From NCBI GenBank assembly GCA_029251005.1, contig JAQXEE010000052.1, positions 1 through 44,768 of the forward strand: 44,768 nt of DNA, in the 5' to 3' direction. The DNA comes from Flavobacteriales bacterium (GTDB lineage: Bacteria > Bacteroidota > Bacteroidia > Flavobacteriales_C > GCA-002722245). The position numbers and the translations under genes are program-made. Below the pieces are notes generated by a model. The model ran no database searches. It worked only from the letters and a program-made list of their open reading frames with translations, and was not told the origin of the DNA. Shown here one piece after another: positions 32,440 through 38,971 of this stretch. Numbering within the stretch: position 1 is the stretch's first letter; each line of letters starts with the position of its first letter.

Positions 32440-33564
32440 ATGGAGAATTTTGTAGTCTCAGCAAGGAAATATCGCCCCGACAGTTTTGATACTGTTGTTG
32501 GACAATCTGCTATTACTTCAACATTAAAAAATTCCATTTTAAACAATCAAGTCGCTCAAGCGTTTTTATTTTGTGGCCCTCGTGGAGTTGGTAAAACAAC
32601 TTGTGCCAGAATCTTAGCTAAAACCATTAACTGTACTGATATTTCAGCAGTTGGCGAAGCGTGTAATAAATGTGAAAGCTGTACTTCATTTGCAAACGGG
32701 AACTCATTAAATATTTTTGAGTTAGATGCCGCTTCAAACAATTCGGTTGATGACATCCGTAACTTAATCAATCAAGTAAGAATTGCTCCTACAATAGGAA
32801 CAAAAAAAGCTTACATAATTGATGAGGTTCACATGTTATCTCAAGCTGCTTTTAATGCATTTTTAAAAACACTTGAAGAACCACCTAAACATGCTGTATT
32901 TATTTTAGCAACTACCGAAAAGCATAAAGTTTTACCTACTATTCTTTCTCGTTGTCAGATTTTCAATTTCAATAGAATTGTATCCGATGATATCGCATCT
33001 CACTTGCATGGGATTGCCGAAAAAGAAAATGTTAAAACAGAAAATGATGCTTTACATGTTATTGCTCAAAAAGCAGATGGTGGATTAAGAGATGCGCTTT
33101 CTATTTTCGATCAATTAATTAGTTTTTCGGAAGGTGAGTTAACCTATGATAAGGTGATTAAAAACCTTAACATTCTTGATTACGATTACTATTTTAAAAC
33201 TACCGATTTAATTAAAAACAAAAATTTAAGTGGCTTGTTATTGTTGCTCAATCAAGTTTTAACAAAGGGGTTTGAAGATGTTTTATTCATGAATGGATTA
33301 GCTTCTCATTTTAGAAATCTATTGGTTAGTAAAGATGAGTCTACTCTTGTTTTATTGGATGTTGGAGATAATATAAAAGAGAAATACAAAACTCAATCTC
33401 AGCAAAACGAGGTTAGATTTTTAATTAATGGGCTTGAAGTACTTAGTAATTTTGATGTTAGTTATAAAACATCAAAAAACAAACGGTTACTTACCGAAGT
33501 AACCTTAATGCAACTTTGCGCAGACGAACTAGTAGAGAGTAAAAAAAAAAGTCCCGTAGAATAA
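32440..33564 (+). CDS. dnaX: DNA polymerase III gamma/tau subunit, unshifted (gamma-like) product
   Basis: Clamp-loader ATPase. Starts MENFVVSARKYRPDSF, the usual Bacteroidota DnaX start. AAA+ motifs: Walker A GPRGVGKTT, zinc-module cysteines CTDISAVGEACNKCESC (in parts, C..CxxC), Walker B IDEVHML, sensor ATTEKHKVLPTI and SRCQIFNF. The frame ends at 374 residues with VESKKKSPVE just after a run of ten A (33541-33550). The tau-type C-terminal region is encoded in the -1 frame from there. This 374-residue product holds the complete ATPase and collar-type regions and would correspond to gamma in E. coli or Thermus. Confidence 0.93.
   Translation: MENFVVSARKYRPDSFDTVVGQSAITSTLKNSILNNQVAQAFLFCGPRGVGKTTCARILAKTINCTDISAVGEACNKCESCTSFANGNSLNIFELDAASNNSVDDIRNLINQVRIAPTIGTKKAYIIDEVHMLSQAAFNAFLKTLEEPPKHAVFILATTEKHKVLPTILSRCQIFNFNRIVSDDIASHLHGIAEKENVKTENDALHVIAQKADGGLRDALSIFDQLISFSEGELTYDKVIKNLNILDYDYYFKTTDLIKNKNLSGLLLLLNQVLTKGFEDVLFMNGLASHFRNLLVSKDESTLVLLDVGDNIKEKYKTQSQQNEVRFLINGLEVLSNFDVSYKTSKNKRLLTEVTLMQLCADELVESKKKSPVE
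33541..33550 (+). other. A10 slippage site in dnaX
   Basis: Ten consecutive A, read AAA AAA AAA A in the dnaX frame. A -1 ribosomal slip, or one extra A added by the RNA polymerase, leads into a long open frame to 34160. No strong downstream hairpin or upstream Shine-Dalgarno-like stimulator is visible, which fits transcriptional slippage of the Thermus type better than the E. coli mechanism. A one-base homopolymer sequencing error would look the same. Confidence 0.7.
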
Positions 33565-34160
33565 GATTACCTATTCCTGCAATTTGGGCAAGTAACGCTA
33601 TAACTCCAGAAAACGCACCTGTCCCAAAACACAATCACTCGCAAGTTAGGCAAAGATTAAATAAAGAAGAATCAATCCCAACTACTCGTAAGATTAATGT
33701 CGTAAACAGATCTCACCCTCAAGGAAAACATTCCTTAAAAACCTTACTCGATCCTAATGCAGGAAAGAAACAAGAGGAAGAAAAATTAGAAGAAAAGTCA
33801 GAAGAATTCACACAAGACCAACTGGTGGATAAATGGAGAAAATTTGCTTACTCTATTAAACTAAAAGACCTTGATCTATATTCGACCCTTAGTGCTAACG
33901 ATCCAATTTTAAGAGATAATTTCAGAATAGAACTTGATATTTACAATACTACTCAAGAATCCGACATCAATAGTAAAAGAAAAGATTTACTTCTCTATTT
34001 AAGAAAGCAACTAAACAATACAATTCTAGATCTTCACTTAGTTATCGATAAATCAAAAGAACCTAAAGGTGTTTTCACCGAAAAAGACAAATACAAAAAA
34101 CTCGTTGAAAAAAACCCTAAAGTAGATGAGCTCAGAAAAAAGTTCGGATTATCTTTTTAA
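33551..34160 (+). CDS. dnaX: dnaX tau-specific C-terminal region (-1 frame)
   Basis: From the A10 tract the -1 frame is open to a stop at 34158-34160 and encodes about 200 residues: a Pro/Asn/Gln-rich linker (IRLPIPAIWASNAITPENAP in parts; HNHSQVRQRLNKEES), an acidic Glu/Lys stretch, then a folded-looking domain (DKWRKFAYSIKLKDLDLYSTL in parts; LRKQLNNTILDLHLVID; VDELRKKFGLSF). Joined to the first part, the protein is 573 residues, a normal tau length. The ATG at 33825 is internal to this domain and not a separate gene start. Tau links clamp loader to polymerase and helicase; the domain here is judged by position. Confidence 0.8.
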
Positions 34161-34387
34161 AATACAATTAGTTACCAATAAATTCAAAAACAAACCTGTC
34201 TTATTCCCCTTTCCTCTAGAATTTACGAATTCATAAGTGCTCCAATAAACTAAAATCGTAATTCTACGATATCCGCAAACATCTTAATACGAAACAAAAA
34301 TTTTAAAAAAACCAATAAAAAATGTGACGAATCGTTTTTTGTGTGTTATGTATATAAATTAGGAAACCAAAAGTGAAATTAGCAAGA

Positions 34388-34957
34388 ATGAATATAAATC
34401 CTCAATACCATAAAACGAAGGAGCAAATACATTCTGAACAACAACTGGTTGAATACGCAAAAGCAAATTCAAAAGATTTTAAGCCATTGTATAATCAGTA
34501 TTATGAAATCGTATTCCGTTTCGTTTTTCAACGTACGGGTAACGAGAATTTAACCTCCGAAGTTGTTTCGAATGTGTTTTTTAAAGTATTAAGAAACCTA
34601 CATAAATATGAGTTCAGAGGACTACCCTTCTCAAGCTGGGTGTTAAGGATCGCTCATAACGAAACCTTTAAAGCATTTCGAAAAAGCAAAGACAAAAGAG
34701 TTGTTCGATTAGAAACCGAACATTTACAAAACTTAATATCGGAAAATGCCAATAATTATTTCGAAGAGCTTAAACCTGCTTTATTAAAAGCATTAAAAAC
34801 CTTAAAAGGAGATGATATGCAATTAATAGAAATGCGATTCTTTGAAGGTAGACCTTTTAAAGAAATGGCTGATATTTTAGAAAAGAAGGAATCCGCTGTT
34901 AAAATGAAGGTTTACAGAATACTAGAAAAACTAAAAAATTCACTTAGAAAAAATTAA
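34388..34957 (+). CDS. ECF-type RNA polymerase sigma factor
   Basis: Sigma-70 family factor of 189 residues from the ATG at 34388 (MNINPQYHK); a GTG five codons upstream is possible. Region 2: FKPLYNQYYEIVFRFVFQRT then FSSWVLRIAHNETFKAFRKSK. Region 4: LKTLKGDDMQLIEMRFFEG and FKEMADILEKKESAVKMKVY, a helix-turn-helix. No region 1 or 3, so ECF type. One base separates its stop from the next gene, which encodes a membrane protein with a short cytoplasmic N-terminus, the usual layout of a sigma/anti-sigma pair. 34161-34387 shows no gene; a promoter with clear consensus is not seen there. Confidence 0.9.
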   Translation: MNINPQYHKTKEQIHSEQQLVEYAKANSKDFKPLYNQYYEIVFRFVFQRTGNENLTSEVVSNVFFKVLRNLHKYEFRGLPFSSWVLRIAHNETFKAFRKSKDKRVVRLETEHLQNLISENANNYFEELKPALLKALKTLKGDDMQLIEMRFFEGRPFKEMADILEKKESAVKMKVYRILEKLKNSLRKN

Positions 34958-34958
34958 A

Positions 34959-36707
34959 ATGACCGATTATAAATTCAACATAGACGGCAAACAACTTTCA
35001 AGCGAAGAAATCCAAAAGAGAAAAGATTTCAATGCATTTCACAAAAAGTTTCAAGCGCAATCAAAAGCATTTTACCAACAAAATTGGTTTTGGAAAAGTA
35101 CTGGATTAGCCTCGGTTATTATTGTTTCCTTATTTATGATAATCTCCTCTAGTAAAAACAATTCAAAGAACCCCGTTGATGATAAGACATTCGAAATCGT
35201 AAACGAGAAGCTATTTATAAAACCACCTTTCAAAGATTTAAGGATTAAAGCAGATGCTTTTAAAGTTGATGCAAACAAAGGAGGAACTTTTAAAAGTAGG
35301 TTTGGAAGTATTATCAAAATACCCGCCTTTGCTTTTTCCAGAAAAAATGGAAAGACAATTAAAGATCAAACTGTTGAAATAAGGTTTACTGAGTACAAAG
35401 ATGTTGCAGATCAAATAATATCCGGCATACCGATGACGTATGATTCTGCAGGGACTAAGTACATGTTTTCTTCAGCAGGAATGGTTGAGATTAGGGGATT
35501 TATTGGCGACTCGTCTGTTAACCTTAATTCTCAAGAGCCTATTCAAATAGAAATGCAATCGGCATACAGTGGAACAGAATATAACTTTTACTGTTTAAAC
35601 GAAGAAGAAAAAAGTTGGGACTACTTAGGAAAAGATAGTGTTGTTAATCATGCGGAAGAAGCCTTTAAAAAACAAATACAAGAGAAATATCCTGAAATTC
35701 AGAAAAAAGATATTCAAATTTCCAACAAACAACTTGAGGCCCAGTTACAACGTATTCCAGAATACAAAAAAAGAAAAAAGAGAAAATTTCAAATACTACA
35801 AGACTTAAGGCAGTTAAACGCTATTTCCCCTACCAAACCTATTAAGGCAGACAAAGAAAAAGAGAAGTTCAGCCTAGACATCCTAGAAAAGGAAAACCCT
35901 GAGTTGGTTTCTTACAAAGATGTTCAGTTTGAATTAGCATTTGGCGAATCAATTAACCCTAAACATACCAATCAAAACTGGAATAATGTTGATATTAAAA
36001 AAGGAGAAGACAATGAAGTTTTAATTACTTTTTCAAAGTTAAATTCGAATCAGGAAATACAATACAAAGCAATTCCAGTTTTAGATGGAAAAGCTTTTGA
36101 GAATGCTCATAAAGCTTACTTAACCAGTGTAAATAATATAAATAAAAAGCGAAATGAGCTTAAAAAAGTTACTCAACAAATTAAATACTTACAAAGAGAA
36201 ATCAAAACTAAATCAATCGATAAAGCATTTATCCAAGCCAAACTAGACAGAACGGAACGGATTGCATATGCACAACTGGAAAGGAGAAATAAGGACGAAT
36301 TGGCTAGACTAGAACAACGTGCAACAGTTCAAAAAATTCAATTGCAAAATAAAAAGACACAGGAAAAAGTAACTAGGTGTTTTTCAGCTTCAAATTTTGG
36401 TGTATTTAATTGTGATAAAGCAATAGCAACCGGAGCTAACAAAAAATCTACTATTACTAACATTAAATTTCAAGAGGAAGTAAATGAAGCTATCGTTATT
36501 GATGTTTTCCAGCAAGCAAATGGAATATATAGTTGCATAGCAATGAAAAAAAAAGTCTTAAATCAATATGCTAATTCAACAATCACAATAGGAATAAGCA
36601 AGAATCAAATCGGTATTTTAAACCACACAAGCAAAGGAGAATTGAATTTTACAGTGAAAGGAGTACCAAAATCAAAAGCACAATTAATGGAATGGTTAGA
36701 GCTTTAA
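34959..36707 (+). CDS. Single-pass membrane protein, candidate anti-sigma factor
   Basis: A 582-residue protein: about 46 cytoplasmic residues, one membrane helix (47-64, STGLASVIIVSLFMIISS), then a large extracytoplasmic part. Residues about 95-200 are beta-rich (GGTFKSRFGSIIKIPAFAF, VEIRFTEYKDVADQIISGIP in parts), resembling beta-sandwich domains of Bacteroidota surface proteins. Two charged coiled-coil stretches follow (about 235-290 and 385-460), then a C-terminal domain with CFSASNFGVFNCDKA. The first gene upstream is an ECF sigma factor 1 base away, so an anti-sigma role is likely, but no zinc-type HxxxCxxC anti-sigma motif is seen. It overlaps the next gene by 16 bases. Confidence 0.7.
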   Translation: MTDYKFNIDGKQLSSEEIQKRKDFNAFHKKFQAQSKAFYQQNWFWKSTGLASVIIVSLFMIISSSKNNSKNPVDDKTFEIVNEKLFIKPPFKDLRIKADAFKVDANKGGTFKSRFGSIIKIPAFAFSRKNGKTIKDQTVEIRFTEYKDVADQIISGIPMTYDSAGTKYMFSSAGMVEIRGFIGDSSVNLNSQEPIQIEMQSAYSGTEYNFYCLNEEEKSWDYLGKDSVVNHAEEAFKKQIQEKYPEIQKKDIQISNKQLEAQLQRIPEYKKRKKRKFQILQDLRQLNAISPTKPIKADKEKEKFSLDILEKENPELVSYKDVQFELAFGESINPKHTNQNWNNVDIKKGEDNEVLITFSKLNSNQEIQYKAIPVLDGKAFENAHKAYLTSVNNINKKRNELKKVTQQIKYLQREIKTKSIDKAFIQAKLDRTERIAYAQLERRNKDELARLEQRATVQKIQLQNKKTQEKVTRCFSASNFGVFNCDKAIATGANKKSTITNIKFQEEVNEAIVIDVFQQANGIYSCIAMKKKVLNQYANSTITIGISKNQIGILNHTSKGELNFTVKGVPKSKAQLMEWLEL

Positions 36708-37678
36708 TATTTTTAATAATTTTTTCTTCGTCTCTTTTTAGTCAGTCAAACGACCCTGTTCAAATATTTAAAATTCGACCACCCGAAAAAAGAATTGAAG
36801 GGCTTTTTGCTGATACTGAGAATACATCGATTAAAACAATGTATTACTTTGCATTAGATGGAAGTATTTACATTTTTAAAACTAATCTTAACGAAGAAGA
36901 ATTCTTTAATAAACTAATAAGGGAACAAGAATACTTTCCGTATCAAAAAGCATACTACCAAATGGAACGCAGTAGTGAAAAAGTAATTATTACTGTTTCC
37001 GAAAAAACGGATACAAATTATTTACTTGGAAAGTATAGATCTGGTACTTTTTTCCTAGTACATAGTGATACCATTATACAGACTGACAATTGGAATGTAG
37101 GCTCATTTATCATTGCCAAAACAGAGATGGAAAAGGAAGAGCATAAACATCAAATGCAAATTTTTGAGGGAAGTATCTTCAGTAAAAACTGTAATCAAAA
37201 CTTCTTTTGGGGAGGAAACATTAAAACGATACAGTTAGATATCAACGACACTGCGGACTACCGAAAGAAAAAAGCTATAATATCAACAGTTCCAATCGGA
37301 AATATTGAGAGTATTATTGATAATAGGTTTAAATATTATACCGAAAAACATTGCAATTATTTTAATAATGACTCACAGGTCGTGTTTAAGACTCTAATAG
37401 GTAGTTGTTCTGAAGCTTTCACAGAGATTGACACAATTAAACAATTCCCTACCAGTTTACATCACTATGAAAGGTTTGGGGTGAAAAACTACCTAATAAA
37501 GTCTAACCATAAGACCCAATGGATTGTTAAACTGGGCTGTGAAGTAATCATTAAAACTCTACAATCGAAAAAAGTAGAATATTTACTGGAATTGGAAAGT
37601 AAAGAAGTTTTTGAAAAATTAAAAAACATAACACCCATTTCTACAATAAGTTTAAATAAACCCTGCGGAAAACAATAA
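36692..37678 (+). CDS. Secreted protein of unknown function, paralogue A
   Basis: A 328-residue protein with a signal peptide (MVRALIFLIIFSSSLFSQ). The N-terminal half is poorly conserved; the C-terminal half (about 165-325) matches the protein encoded next. Shared features: CNQNFFWGG, LDINDTA, FNNDSQVVF, GSCSEAF, KNYLIKS, KLGCEV, SKEVFEKLKNIT and a final Cys. Cysteines C167, C239, C283 and C325 correspond to C223, C295, C340 and C382 of the neighbour with nearly identical spacing (72, 44, 42 versus 72, 45, 42). The start lies 16 bases inside the membrane-protein gene. No known family recognised. Confidence 0.75.
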   Translation: MVRALIFLIIFSSSLFSQSNDPVQIFKIRPPEKRIEGLFADTENTSIKTMYYFALDGSIYIFKTNLNEEEFFNKLIREQEYFPYQKAYYQMERSSEKVIITVSEKTDTNYLLGKYRSGTFFLVHSDTIIQTDNWNVGSFIIAKTEMEKEEHKHQMQIFEGSIFSKNCNQNFFWGGNIKTIQLDINDTADYRKKKAIISTVPIGNIESIIDNRFKYYTEKHCNYFNNDSQVVFKTLIGSCSEAFTEIDTIKQFPTSLHHYERFGVKNYLIKSNHKTQWIVKLGCEVIIKTLQSKKVEYLLELESKEVFEKLKNITPISTISLNKPCGKQ

Positions 37679-37679
37679 T

Positions 37680-38834
37680 TTGAAAAAGACTTTACACATA
37701 TTATTTATTTTTCTCCTATGCGGTTCAATTTCGGCACAAAAACACGTTTTCAAAATCAGAAAAGTTCCACAATTAAAATATTTTGTATTTGCCGATGGCT
37801 TTAACAAGCACAACCTAGAAGAAAAAAAGCTAGAGAACAAAAGATTTCCAAAACGATTATACCTTCAAGTATATGAAAATGACACTTTTTTAATAAGATG
37901 GAGTGATTGGAAGCTCGCAGAAGCTAATATTAAATTAGATTATTTAAAACGTGACTCCCTAACATTCGCTGGTAAAGTCATCAGACAAAAAAAGACGGGT
38001 ATGAAATTTATTTTCCCTTATGAAGGAGAGACATTTCACATGTTTTCAATAAGTCAGGAGCCATTAGTAAAACAACGTAACTACAAAGCAGGGAAACCTG
38101 GGGAACAAAAAAAAAGAGTATCCTTTTATTTTACATATAAAGACAAATCCTTAATACTAGGCGACATGCTTCTCAAGCAAGTTAAAGAAAACCAGAAAAT
38201 AGAAGTAATTTTAAAATCAAGTGCAAGAATAAAACTTGGCTTCTATTCTAACGAACTATATGCGAATGATGCCATAGCTGAAGATTTACCCTTAAACATC
38301 GTAAACACCTACCCTGTTCACTTTATATTAGAGAACTCAAAAACTTGTCAGCAAACATTATTCTGGAATGGAGTACCAACTACTAAATACTTAAACATAA
38401 ATGACACTGCACAACTCAGTAAAGACCGAGCTTTCGTTAATAATTTACCCCCAGAAAACATTTTAAGCATCGATAACAATCAGGTAGAATATTATCAAGC
38501 GAGAAGATATGTTCACCTCGAAAACGATTCTCAATTAGTAGCGAGCGATTATAATAGAGGCTGTTCCTATTTTCAAAAAAAACTAAATGATCTCGACGGC
38601 ATACCTTTAGCACCTTATTGGGACACTCGAGATGGTATTAATAATTACTTAACACCAATAGGAAATAAATTATGGGGTTGGGTATCGAAATACGGATGTT
38701 TAATAGAATGGAAGGTTTATGAAGAAAATAAAATAAAAAACCTACTCTCTCTTCCTAGCCAAGAATTATTCAAACAACTTAATTATGTGACAGTTAAGTC
38801 TTCCGCAATTTTAAACCTCTCTTGCAAAAAATAA
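37680..38834 (+). CDS. Secreted protein of unknown function, paralogue B
   Basis: A 384-residue protein with a signal peptide (MKKTLHILFIFLLCGSISAQ). It begins at TTG, one base after the stop of paralogue A; an in-frame stop at 37653 and no ATG in between leave no better start. The N-terminal part (21-215) is beta-rich and basic; the C-terminal part (about 220-384) is the four-cysteine domain shared with paralogue A: CQQTLFWNG, LNINDTA, LENDSQLV, RGCSYF, NNYLTP, KYGCLIEW, SQELFKQLNYVT and SC near the end. Last gene of the sigma-factor operon. Two disulfides in the shared domain are likely. Function unknown. Confidence 0.75.
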   Translation: MKKTLHILFIFLLCGSISAQKHVFKIRKVPQLKYFVFADGFNKHNLEEKKLENKRFPKRLYLQVYENDTFLIRWSDWKLAEANIKLDYLKRDSLTFAGKVIRQKKTGMKFIFPYEGETFHMFSISQEPLVKQRNYKAGKPGEQKKRVSFYFTYKDKSLILGDMLLKQVKENQKIEVILKSSARIKLGFYSNELYANDAIAEDLPLNIVNTYPVHFILENSKTCQQTLFWNGVPTTKYLNINDTAQLSKDRAFVNNLPPENILSIDNNQVEYYQARRYVHLENDSQLVASDYNRGCSYFQKKLNDLDGIPLAPYWDTRDGINNYLTPIGNKLWGWVSKYGCLIEWKVYEENKIKNLLSLPSQELFKQLNYVTVKSSAILNLSCKK

Positions 38835-38896: not shown

Positions 38897-38969
38897 GGTG
38901 CCATAGCTCAGTTGGTAGAGCATAGGACTGAAAATCCTTGTGTCGTTGGTTCGATTCCAACTGGCACCA
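38897..38969 (+). tRNA. tRNA-Phe (GAA)
   Basis: A complete 73-base cloverleaf: acceptor arms GGTGCCA and TGGCACC, D stems GCTC/GAGC, anticodon loop CTGAAAA with GAA at positions 34-36, T arm GTTGG-TTCGATT-CCAAC, discriminator A. The CCA end is not encoded (next bases are CGA). One pair at the base of the anticodon stem is T-T. A hairpin terminator follows. Confidence 0.96.
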
Positions 38970-38971
38970 CG

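Follow-up and report, generated by a model that had tools for sequence, protein, structure and literature searches.

A four-gene operon headed by an ECF sigma factor

We analyzed a 44,768-nt stretch of an uncultured Flavobacteriales genome (NCBI GenBank assembly GCA_029251005.1, contig JAQXEE010000052.1, positions 1 to 44,768 of the forward strand), here termed the window, with a focus on a four-gene operon that begins with a gene for an extracytoplasmic function (ECF) sigma factor. Its products, P1 to P4, comprise the sigma factor, a large membrane protein and two exported proteins. P1 and P2 belong to a real, conserved regulatory module in which P2 most likely represents a new anti-sigma family of a known kind and whose regulon is probably the type IX secretion system (T9SS) and gliding machinery. 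The genome of the window is referred to as G000, related genomes as G001, G002, G003, G004 and so on, and the sister genus as g2. The features, all on the + strand, are as follows.

34323..34349, promoter-like element TGTGAC-N16-GTTAT, matched by pattern, a probable P1-type autoregulatory promoter
34388..34957, P1, ECF sigma factor of 189 aa (profile matches above cut-off, sigma clade)
34959..36707, P2, 582 aa, probable anti-sigma factor and trans-membrane sensor (sigma linkage, predicted complex)
34959..35096, P2 residues 1-46, cytoplasmic and reaching slightly into the trans-membrane helix, with FNxxxxxxSSEEIxKxKDF; probable sigma-binding region
35082..35147, P2 residues 42-63, trans-membrane helix (model helix, hydrophobic sequence)
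35241..35648, P2 residues 95-230, beta-rich periplasmic domain, SGIPMTYDSAG..SAGM (alignment, model confidence, recurrence elsewhere)
36087..36341, P2 residues 377-461, long helix in the model, probable coiled coil
36692..37678, P3, exported protein of 328 aa with a signal-peptide-like start, probable recent duplicate (in G000 and G001 only)
37680..38834, P4, exported protein of 384 aa with a TTG start and a signal-peptide-like N-terminus (orthologues in G001, G002 and G004)
37181..37675, P3 domain shared with P4
38337..38831, P4 domain shared with P3

A first-pass annotation made from the DNA letters had proposed this tightly spaced layout, and the open reading frame (ORF) coordinates bear it out: P1 and P2 are separated by 1 base (34957/34959), P2 and P3 overlap by 16 bases (36692-36707) and P3 and P4 are again 1 base apart (37678/37680). 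Its assignment of the first gene agreed with Pfam (Sigma70_r2, PF04542, E 1e-10; Sigma70_r4_2, PF08281, E 4e-9) and NCBIfam profiles (sigma70-ECF, 77.7 bits versus a cut-off of 42.9). P1 was the only product assigned to families in these searches; P2, P3 and P4 matched none in Pfam or NCBIfam, in line with the earlier failure to recognize them. Known anti-sigma domains (zinc-finger type, RskA, FecR and others) were absent from 34 P2 members searched against Pfam at E up to 0.1. A PDB sequence search with P2 returned only a designed protein (E 0.5), and a Foldseek comparison of the full P2 model with the PDB gave nothing usable (best E 0.32).

In the phylogenetic tree, P1 and the P2-linked sigma factors formed one supported clade (97/99), which also contained a second sigma factor of G000 encoded on contig C45. 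The latter belongs to a paralogous system (L329:2029-3539, minus strand) composed of the sigma factor and a 314-aa trans-membrane protein with an N-terminal motif as in P2 and a different periplasmic part. A further ECF sigma factor of this genome lies at C130:5000-11000 (L327), in one operon with a 570-aa probable anti-sigma factor, a PorP/SprF-like protein and an exported protein.

Conservation and predicted sigma binding of the P2 family

P2 relatives were detected in 63 of 149 related genomes when single-domain matches were counted. Strong matches (E ~1e-20 or better, plus G003, where only the N-terminus matched) were present in 42 of the 149. Across the genome collection, 411 stretches with a P2 relative were confirmed, and the closest named relative, with 87% identity in P2, stems from the Flavobacteriales metagenome-assembled genome FRAM18_bin212. 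Saccharicrinis aurantiacus also has a relative. Among the 80 best loci, 74 had enough upstream DNA for a linkage count, and a P1-type sigma gene was the immediate same-strand upstream neighbor in 73 of these, a recurrence that, judged from gene order, lies far above chance. The sigma-P2 order is kept across the class, and the pair is found again throughout the Bacteroidota; the last three genes match no well-characterized system. Downstream of P2, a crude test applied to 101 loci found a signal-peptide-like start in 81 of 90 same-strand genes. On gene-order evidence, the conserved unit is the sigma factor plus P2, usually followed by some apparently secreted gene. In G003 (L346:1796-2984), the P2 gene ends at 200 aa and is followed by no P4-type gene, which suggests either a decayed system or an assembly fault.

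The AlphaFold model agreed with the initial description of P2 as a 582-residue single-pass membrane protein, showing a short cytoplasmic N-terminus, one hydrophobic helix (42-63) and a large extracytoplasmic part. Together with the family alignment (A1), it gives the order cytoplasmic motif, trans-membrane helix, beta-rich domain, long helix and C-terminal beta domain. The cytoplasmic motif is conserved across A1 as NxNRxxxSxEEIxKxKDFDxV, and the most conserved stretch is the beta-rich periplasmic domain (SGIPMTYDSAG...SAGM), modeled mostly at a predicted local distance difference test score (pLDDT) >90. Both parts are found apart from each other. The N-terminal motif stands nearly alone in an 86-aa trans-membrane protein beside a sigma gene (L094), where the adjoining gene has a GldM-type N-terminus, and also occurs in a 108-aa trans-membrane protein near a related sigma gene (L250). 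The main periplasmic domain recurs in other, unrelated exported proteins. Among them are exported leucine-rich-repeat (LRR) proteins at L212:213-2822 (G106 C51), downstream of the sigma-gene promoter motif described below, and at L010 (G000 C75), the latter a weak match (E 0.002).

For structure prediction of the complex, P1 and P2(1-68) were fused into one chain through a glycine in place of the P1 stop (TAAA), and 14 further fused rows and 8 sigma-only rows were included. An ordered complex was predicted: the pLDDT of P2 residues 11-40 rose from ~55-68 alone to 81-94 in the fusion, and two new strands appeared, one in P2 (residues 5-8) and one in the sigma linker (105-108). Their joint appearance suggests that they pair. 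The modeled sigma factor resembled anti-sigma-bound ECFs (SigW/RsiW, TMt 0.70; CnrH/CnrY, 0.68) more closely than polymerase-bound ones (TMt 0.33-0.41), and is thus predicted to take a closed, anti-sigma-bound shape. Its linkage to the sigma gene and this predicted ordered complex make an anti-sigma factor of P1 the most likely identity of P2.

The predicted arrangement has parallels in CnrH/CnrY (4cxf), RseA and RsiW, in which a sigma factor is kept closed by the short N-terminal cytoplasmic segment of a single-pass membrane protein; of the solved structures, CnrH/CnrY and SigW/RsiW were among those closest to the modeled sigma factor. However, no sequence relationship was found, and the periplasmic part of P2 is much larger and belongs to no known family. 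FecI/FecR shares the succession of an ECF sigma gene and a trans-membrane regulator gene but differs in the FecR domain, which is absent in the 34 P2 proteins, and in the TonB-dependent receptor, which the operon, consisting of P1 to P4 only, lacks.

A promoter motif linking sigma genes to T9SS genes

The motif TGTRWC-N16/17-RTTA was present upstream of 76 of 94 related sigma genes versus 20 of 579 other genes, with 2 matches in shuffled and 0 in reversed controls. A scan of 12 genomes with the TGTATCTTT form returned 69 sites compared to 2 in the reversed control. In the 149-genome sample, a stricter motif occurred at a mean of 3.8 sites per genome in the 42 with P2 and 0.79 in the 107 without; the latter held 84 sites in total, near the reversed control (64). 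Genome-wide enrichment of the stricter motif is thus confined to P2-bearing genomes (Mann-Whitney p 1e-10, which is nominal because the genomes are related to one another). A second relaxed-motif match in G000 (contig C43:30170) was judged to be due to chance, as no correctly oriented gene start lies behind it.

Genes downstream of motif sites included gldJ (in two genomes), gldM, porP-gldK-gldL and porE, with GldJ, GldM, PorE and PorP named by curated family models. Other products are LRR proteins, of which one or more contain the P2 domain, a CHU_C cargo protein, small exported TIKVSKP proteins, and OmpA-like, TonB-type and MORN proteins. T9SS genes follow at least 9 of ~46 sites (p ~3e-7 at a background of 2%, our own generous estimate; p 4e-4 at 5%).

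Within the genus of the window, the P1 promoter carries TGTGAC as its -35 element, and TGTGAC also precedes porP-gldK in G000, G001, G002 and G004, with diverged spacers. In G000, this operon, in which GldK was confirmed by profile, continues with ORFs that correspond to GldL, GldM and GldN in size and N-terminus. The pattern TGTGACKWWT-N12/13-RTTAT had nine matches in five genomes: five P1 promoters, of which that of G001 lies on its own separate contig, three porP-gldK promoters and one other site. In the sister genus g2, TGTAAC occupies both the P1-type and the porP-gldK promoters. This parallel change of the -35 element (TGTGAC/TGTAAC) is our best evidence that a P1-type sigma factor reads the T9SS promoter. 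The C45 sigma gene of G000 is preceded by TGTATCTTTT..CATTAT. A C45-type sigma gene in G004 has the same promoter form, which there also precedes porE.

The TGTATCTTTT..CATTAT form was also found before candidate ECF-driven small RNAs, at L328:227-345 (G000 C43:7626) and, on the minus strand, at L338 and L342 (G002 C25 and G004 C19). The putative transcript starts ~90 bases or less behind the promoter, contains two hairpins, ends in a T-run and has no ORF; its fold z ranged from -4.8 to -6.7 in the three genomes, and no match was present in Rfam. The same promoter form and a terminator-like hairpin precede valS (L334:206-330 in G002, L339:186-330 in G004), an element resembling a leader or a second small RNA.

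Further connections to the T9SS emerged from the third genes of the operons. With a profile built from 13 GldM proteins, third-gene products of several clades gave hmmsearch matches with E 3e-22 to 1e-7 and weaker. The similarity covers the C-terminal third and fourth domains of GldM (hhalign 99.4%), in weak agreement with Pfam GldM_3rd/4th (E ~1e-3, below cut-off). Other third genes encode an FGE-sulfatase domain (E 2.5e-19 and 6e-24); GldK and GldJ also carry an FGE-type domain. Across 102 non-redundant loci, third genes were GldM-like (~21), FGE (20), TIKI family (23), other (28) or absent, including contig ends (12), in counts that overlap by two. At about 20 of the loci, the third gene encodes a free-standing GldM C-terminal domain. 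By these sequence criteria, the operon is tied to the T9SS machinery through a motif shared with T9SS-gene promoters and, in many clades, through GldM-homologous or FGE third genes.

P3 and P4, correctly described at first pass as signal-peptide proteins with a common domain, are 35% identical across their C-terminal ~165 residues (E 3e-24). P4-type proteins were confined to the genus of the window, and P3 to G000 and its close relative G001. In G002 and G004, there is a single P4-type gene, and it shows the 16-base overlap with P2 that is seen for P3 in the window. P3 therefore looks like a recent tandem duplicate inserted between P2 and P4. Candidate relationships to other third-gene classes were rejected: P3 and P4 reached at most 14% in hhalign against GldM (0.2% without signal peptides), a weak TIKI-family match of P4 (6%; 13% with P3) vanished without signal peptides, and a link between TIKI and GldM-like proteins fell from 95% to 44% in the same way. 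Among the exported proteins encoded in these operons, a short TFKIRK/TIKVxK motif soon after the signal peptide was present in 32 of 81, including P4, versus 11 of 182 other signal-peptide proteins, and is possibly a shared docking peptide.

Proposed control of the T9SS and gliding motor

The reading that we favor, and consider reasonably probable, is that P1 and P2 form a sigma/anti-sigma pair and that freed P1 transcribes its own operon together with porP-gldKLMN. At rest, the cytoplasmic N-terminus of P2 (~42 residues) would wrap P1 and keep it at the membrane, with the short P2 strand pairing with the P1 linker between sigma regions 2 and 4. A change felt by the large periplasmic part would then release P1, by proteolysis or by a conformational change, between which our data do not distinguish. 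Free P1, we infer, would transcribe its own operon and porP-gldK-gldL-gldM-gldN, which encodes the T9SS/gliding motor core. The products of the third and fourth genes would enter the periplasm or envelope and probably act on the T9SS machine or feed back on P2. The first-pass annotation had envisaged a cell-surface sensing switch; gene order and the predicted complex support its core, in which a sigma factor is paired with an anti-sigma factor, P2, that senses across the membrane. The ligand or sensor role that it suggested for the secreted proteins is hypothetical.

Several points weigh against this reading. The P1-P2 complex is a one-residue fusion prediction without predicted aligned error values, and the roles of P3 and P4 are inferred. 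The strict genus pattern had 6 matches in the reversed control versus 9, so single strict-pattern sites carry little weight. Many T9SS-bearing genomes lack P2; with gldK in 141 of the 149 genomes, co-occurrence of P2 and gldK was discarded as uninformative. Finally, G000 has the second same-clade sigma factor (C45) with a related promoter, and the porP-gldK promoter of the genus mixes TGTGAC of the P1 type with CATTAT of the C45 type, such that both sigma factors may act there and the share of P1 in porP-gldK control is not proven.

Three rival explanations were weighed. The C45 sigma factor, or one like SigP of Porphyromonas gingivalis, could be the true T9SS regulator, with the P1 operon as its target and P1 reading another, unseen promoter. 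Membership of the C45 sigma factor in the P1 clade, the TGTATC form before porE in G004 and the CATTAT end of the porP-gldK promoter fit this scenario; we nevertheless regard it as improbable, since the porP-gldK -35 element of the genus (TGTGAC) fits the promoter of P1 and not that of C45 (TGTATC), and ECF genes are usually autoregulated. Somewhat less improbable, yet still unlikely, is a general envelope-stress pair in the manner of sigma-E/RseA, with the T9SS operon as one of several targets, small RNAs included. Motif sites before OmpA-like, TonB-type, MORN and LRR proteins and before small RNA-like transcripts of the genus argue for it. Against it, the genus-conserved sites with a P1-type -35 element are those of P1 itself and porP-gldK, the products of several third genes resemble GldM or have an FGE domain, and the wider targets show TGTATC, the form of the other sigma factor in this genus. 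That P2 is an independent envelope protein and merely the operon partner of P1 would suit its large periplasmic part and the presence of its main domain in unrelated exported proteins. We consider this very improbable given the predicted ordered complex, the sigma linkage at 73 of 74 loci and an N-terminal motif that occurs almost by itself in the 86- and 108-aa proteins beside related sigma genes and, in the C45 system, precedes another kind of periplasmic part.

As for what P2 would sense under the favored sigma/anti-sigma reading, an assembly checkpoint is conceivable, if on the doubtful side: the periplasmic part might read the state of GldK-L-M-N, either by itself or via exported proteins that resemble motor parts (GldM C-terminal, FGE-domain or P4-type), and free the sigma factor when the motor is missing or jammed. 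Such a checkpoint would tentatively make P1/P2 a Bacteroidota counterpart of FliA/FlgM, a sigma/anti-sigma pair that ties expression to a motility and secretion machine. The comparison is an analogy only; FlgM is exported through its machine, whereas P2 is a fixed membrane protein.

The closest described set is that of Flavobacterium psychrophilum, where an ECF-type motif with a CGT box at -10 defines the SM6 regulon, which comprises T9SS genes including gldN and porU, one ECF/anti-sigma pair (THC0290_1774/1773) and one small RNA, Rfp11 (PMC9723704). Here, the counterparts are the T9SS genes behind motif sites, the P1/P2 pair and a candidate small RNA. The authors proposed this pair as the regulator, leaving the acting ECF open, and described neither an anti-sigma family nor exported GldM-like partners (PMC9723704). 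Going by that description, the P1/P2 system looks like a phylum-wide version of the SM6 idea with a probable anti-sigma family identified. In P. gingivalis, T9SS component genes are under the control of the ECF sigma factor SigP, which also regulates its own gene (PMC4800418, PMC7712824). For P1, T9SS control is suggested at the sequence level, by the promoter motif that its own gene shares with T9SS target genes. SigP differs in its activation, which depends on the response regulator PorX of the PorX/PorY system, in that no anti-sigma factor has been described for it, and in its motif, reported as C(T)AAA(G/C/T)A(T)A(C)T(A/G)A (PMC4800418, PMC7712824).

Regulation of the T9SS and gliding outside Porphyromonas is largely open. 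The apparent control of these motor genes by the sigma factor is a layer not previously described for this protein family. A probable anti-sigma family without a name is tied to the T9SS core operon by a common promoter and by homologous exported parts in many clades. The system offers candidates for the sensor, the sigma factor, the promoter and the targets, and hints at how a motor that spans the envelope might signal its condition to the genome.

Two neighbors of the operon were also recorded. Upstream, dnaX (DNA polymerase III gamma/tau; window 32440-34160, +) apparently falls into two ORFs, one of 374 aa and one of 111 aa, the latter matching the C-terminus of the dnaX model, while dnaX of G002 is a single 571-aa ORF; the split may be either a sequence error or real. 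Downstream of P4, a tRNA-like sequence with anticodon GAA (Phe), read by eye, lies at window ~38898-38970 on the + strand.

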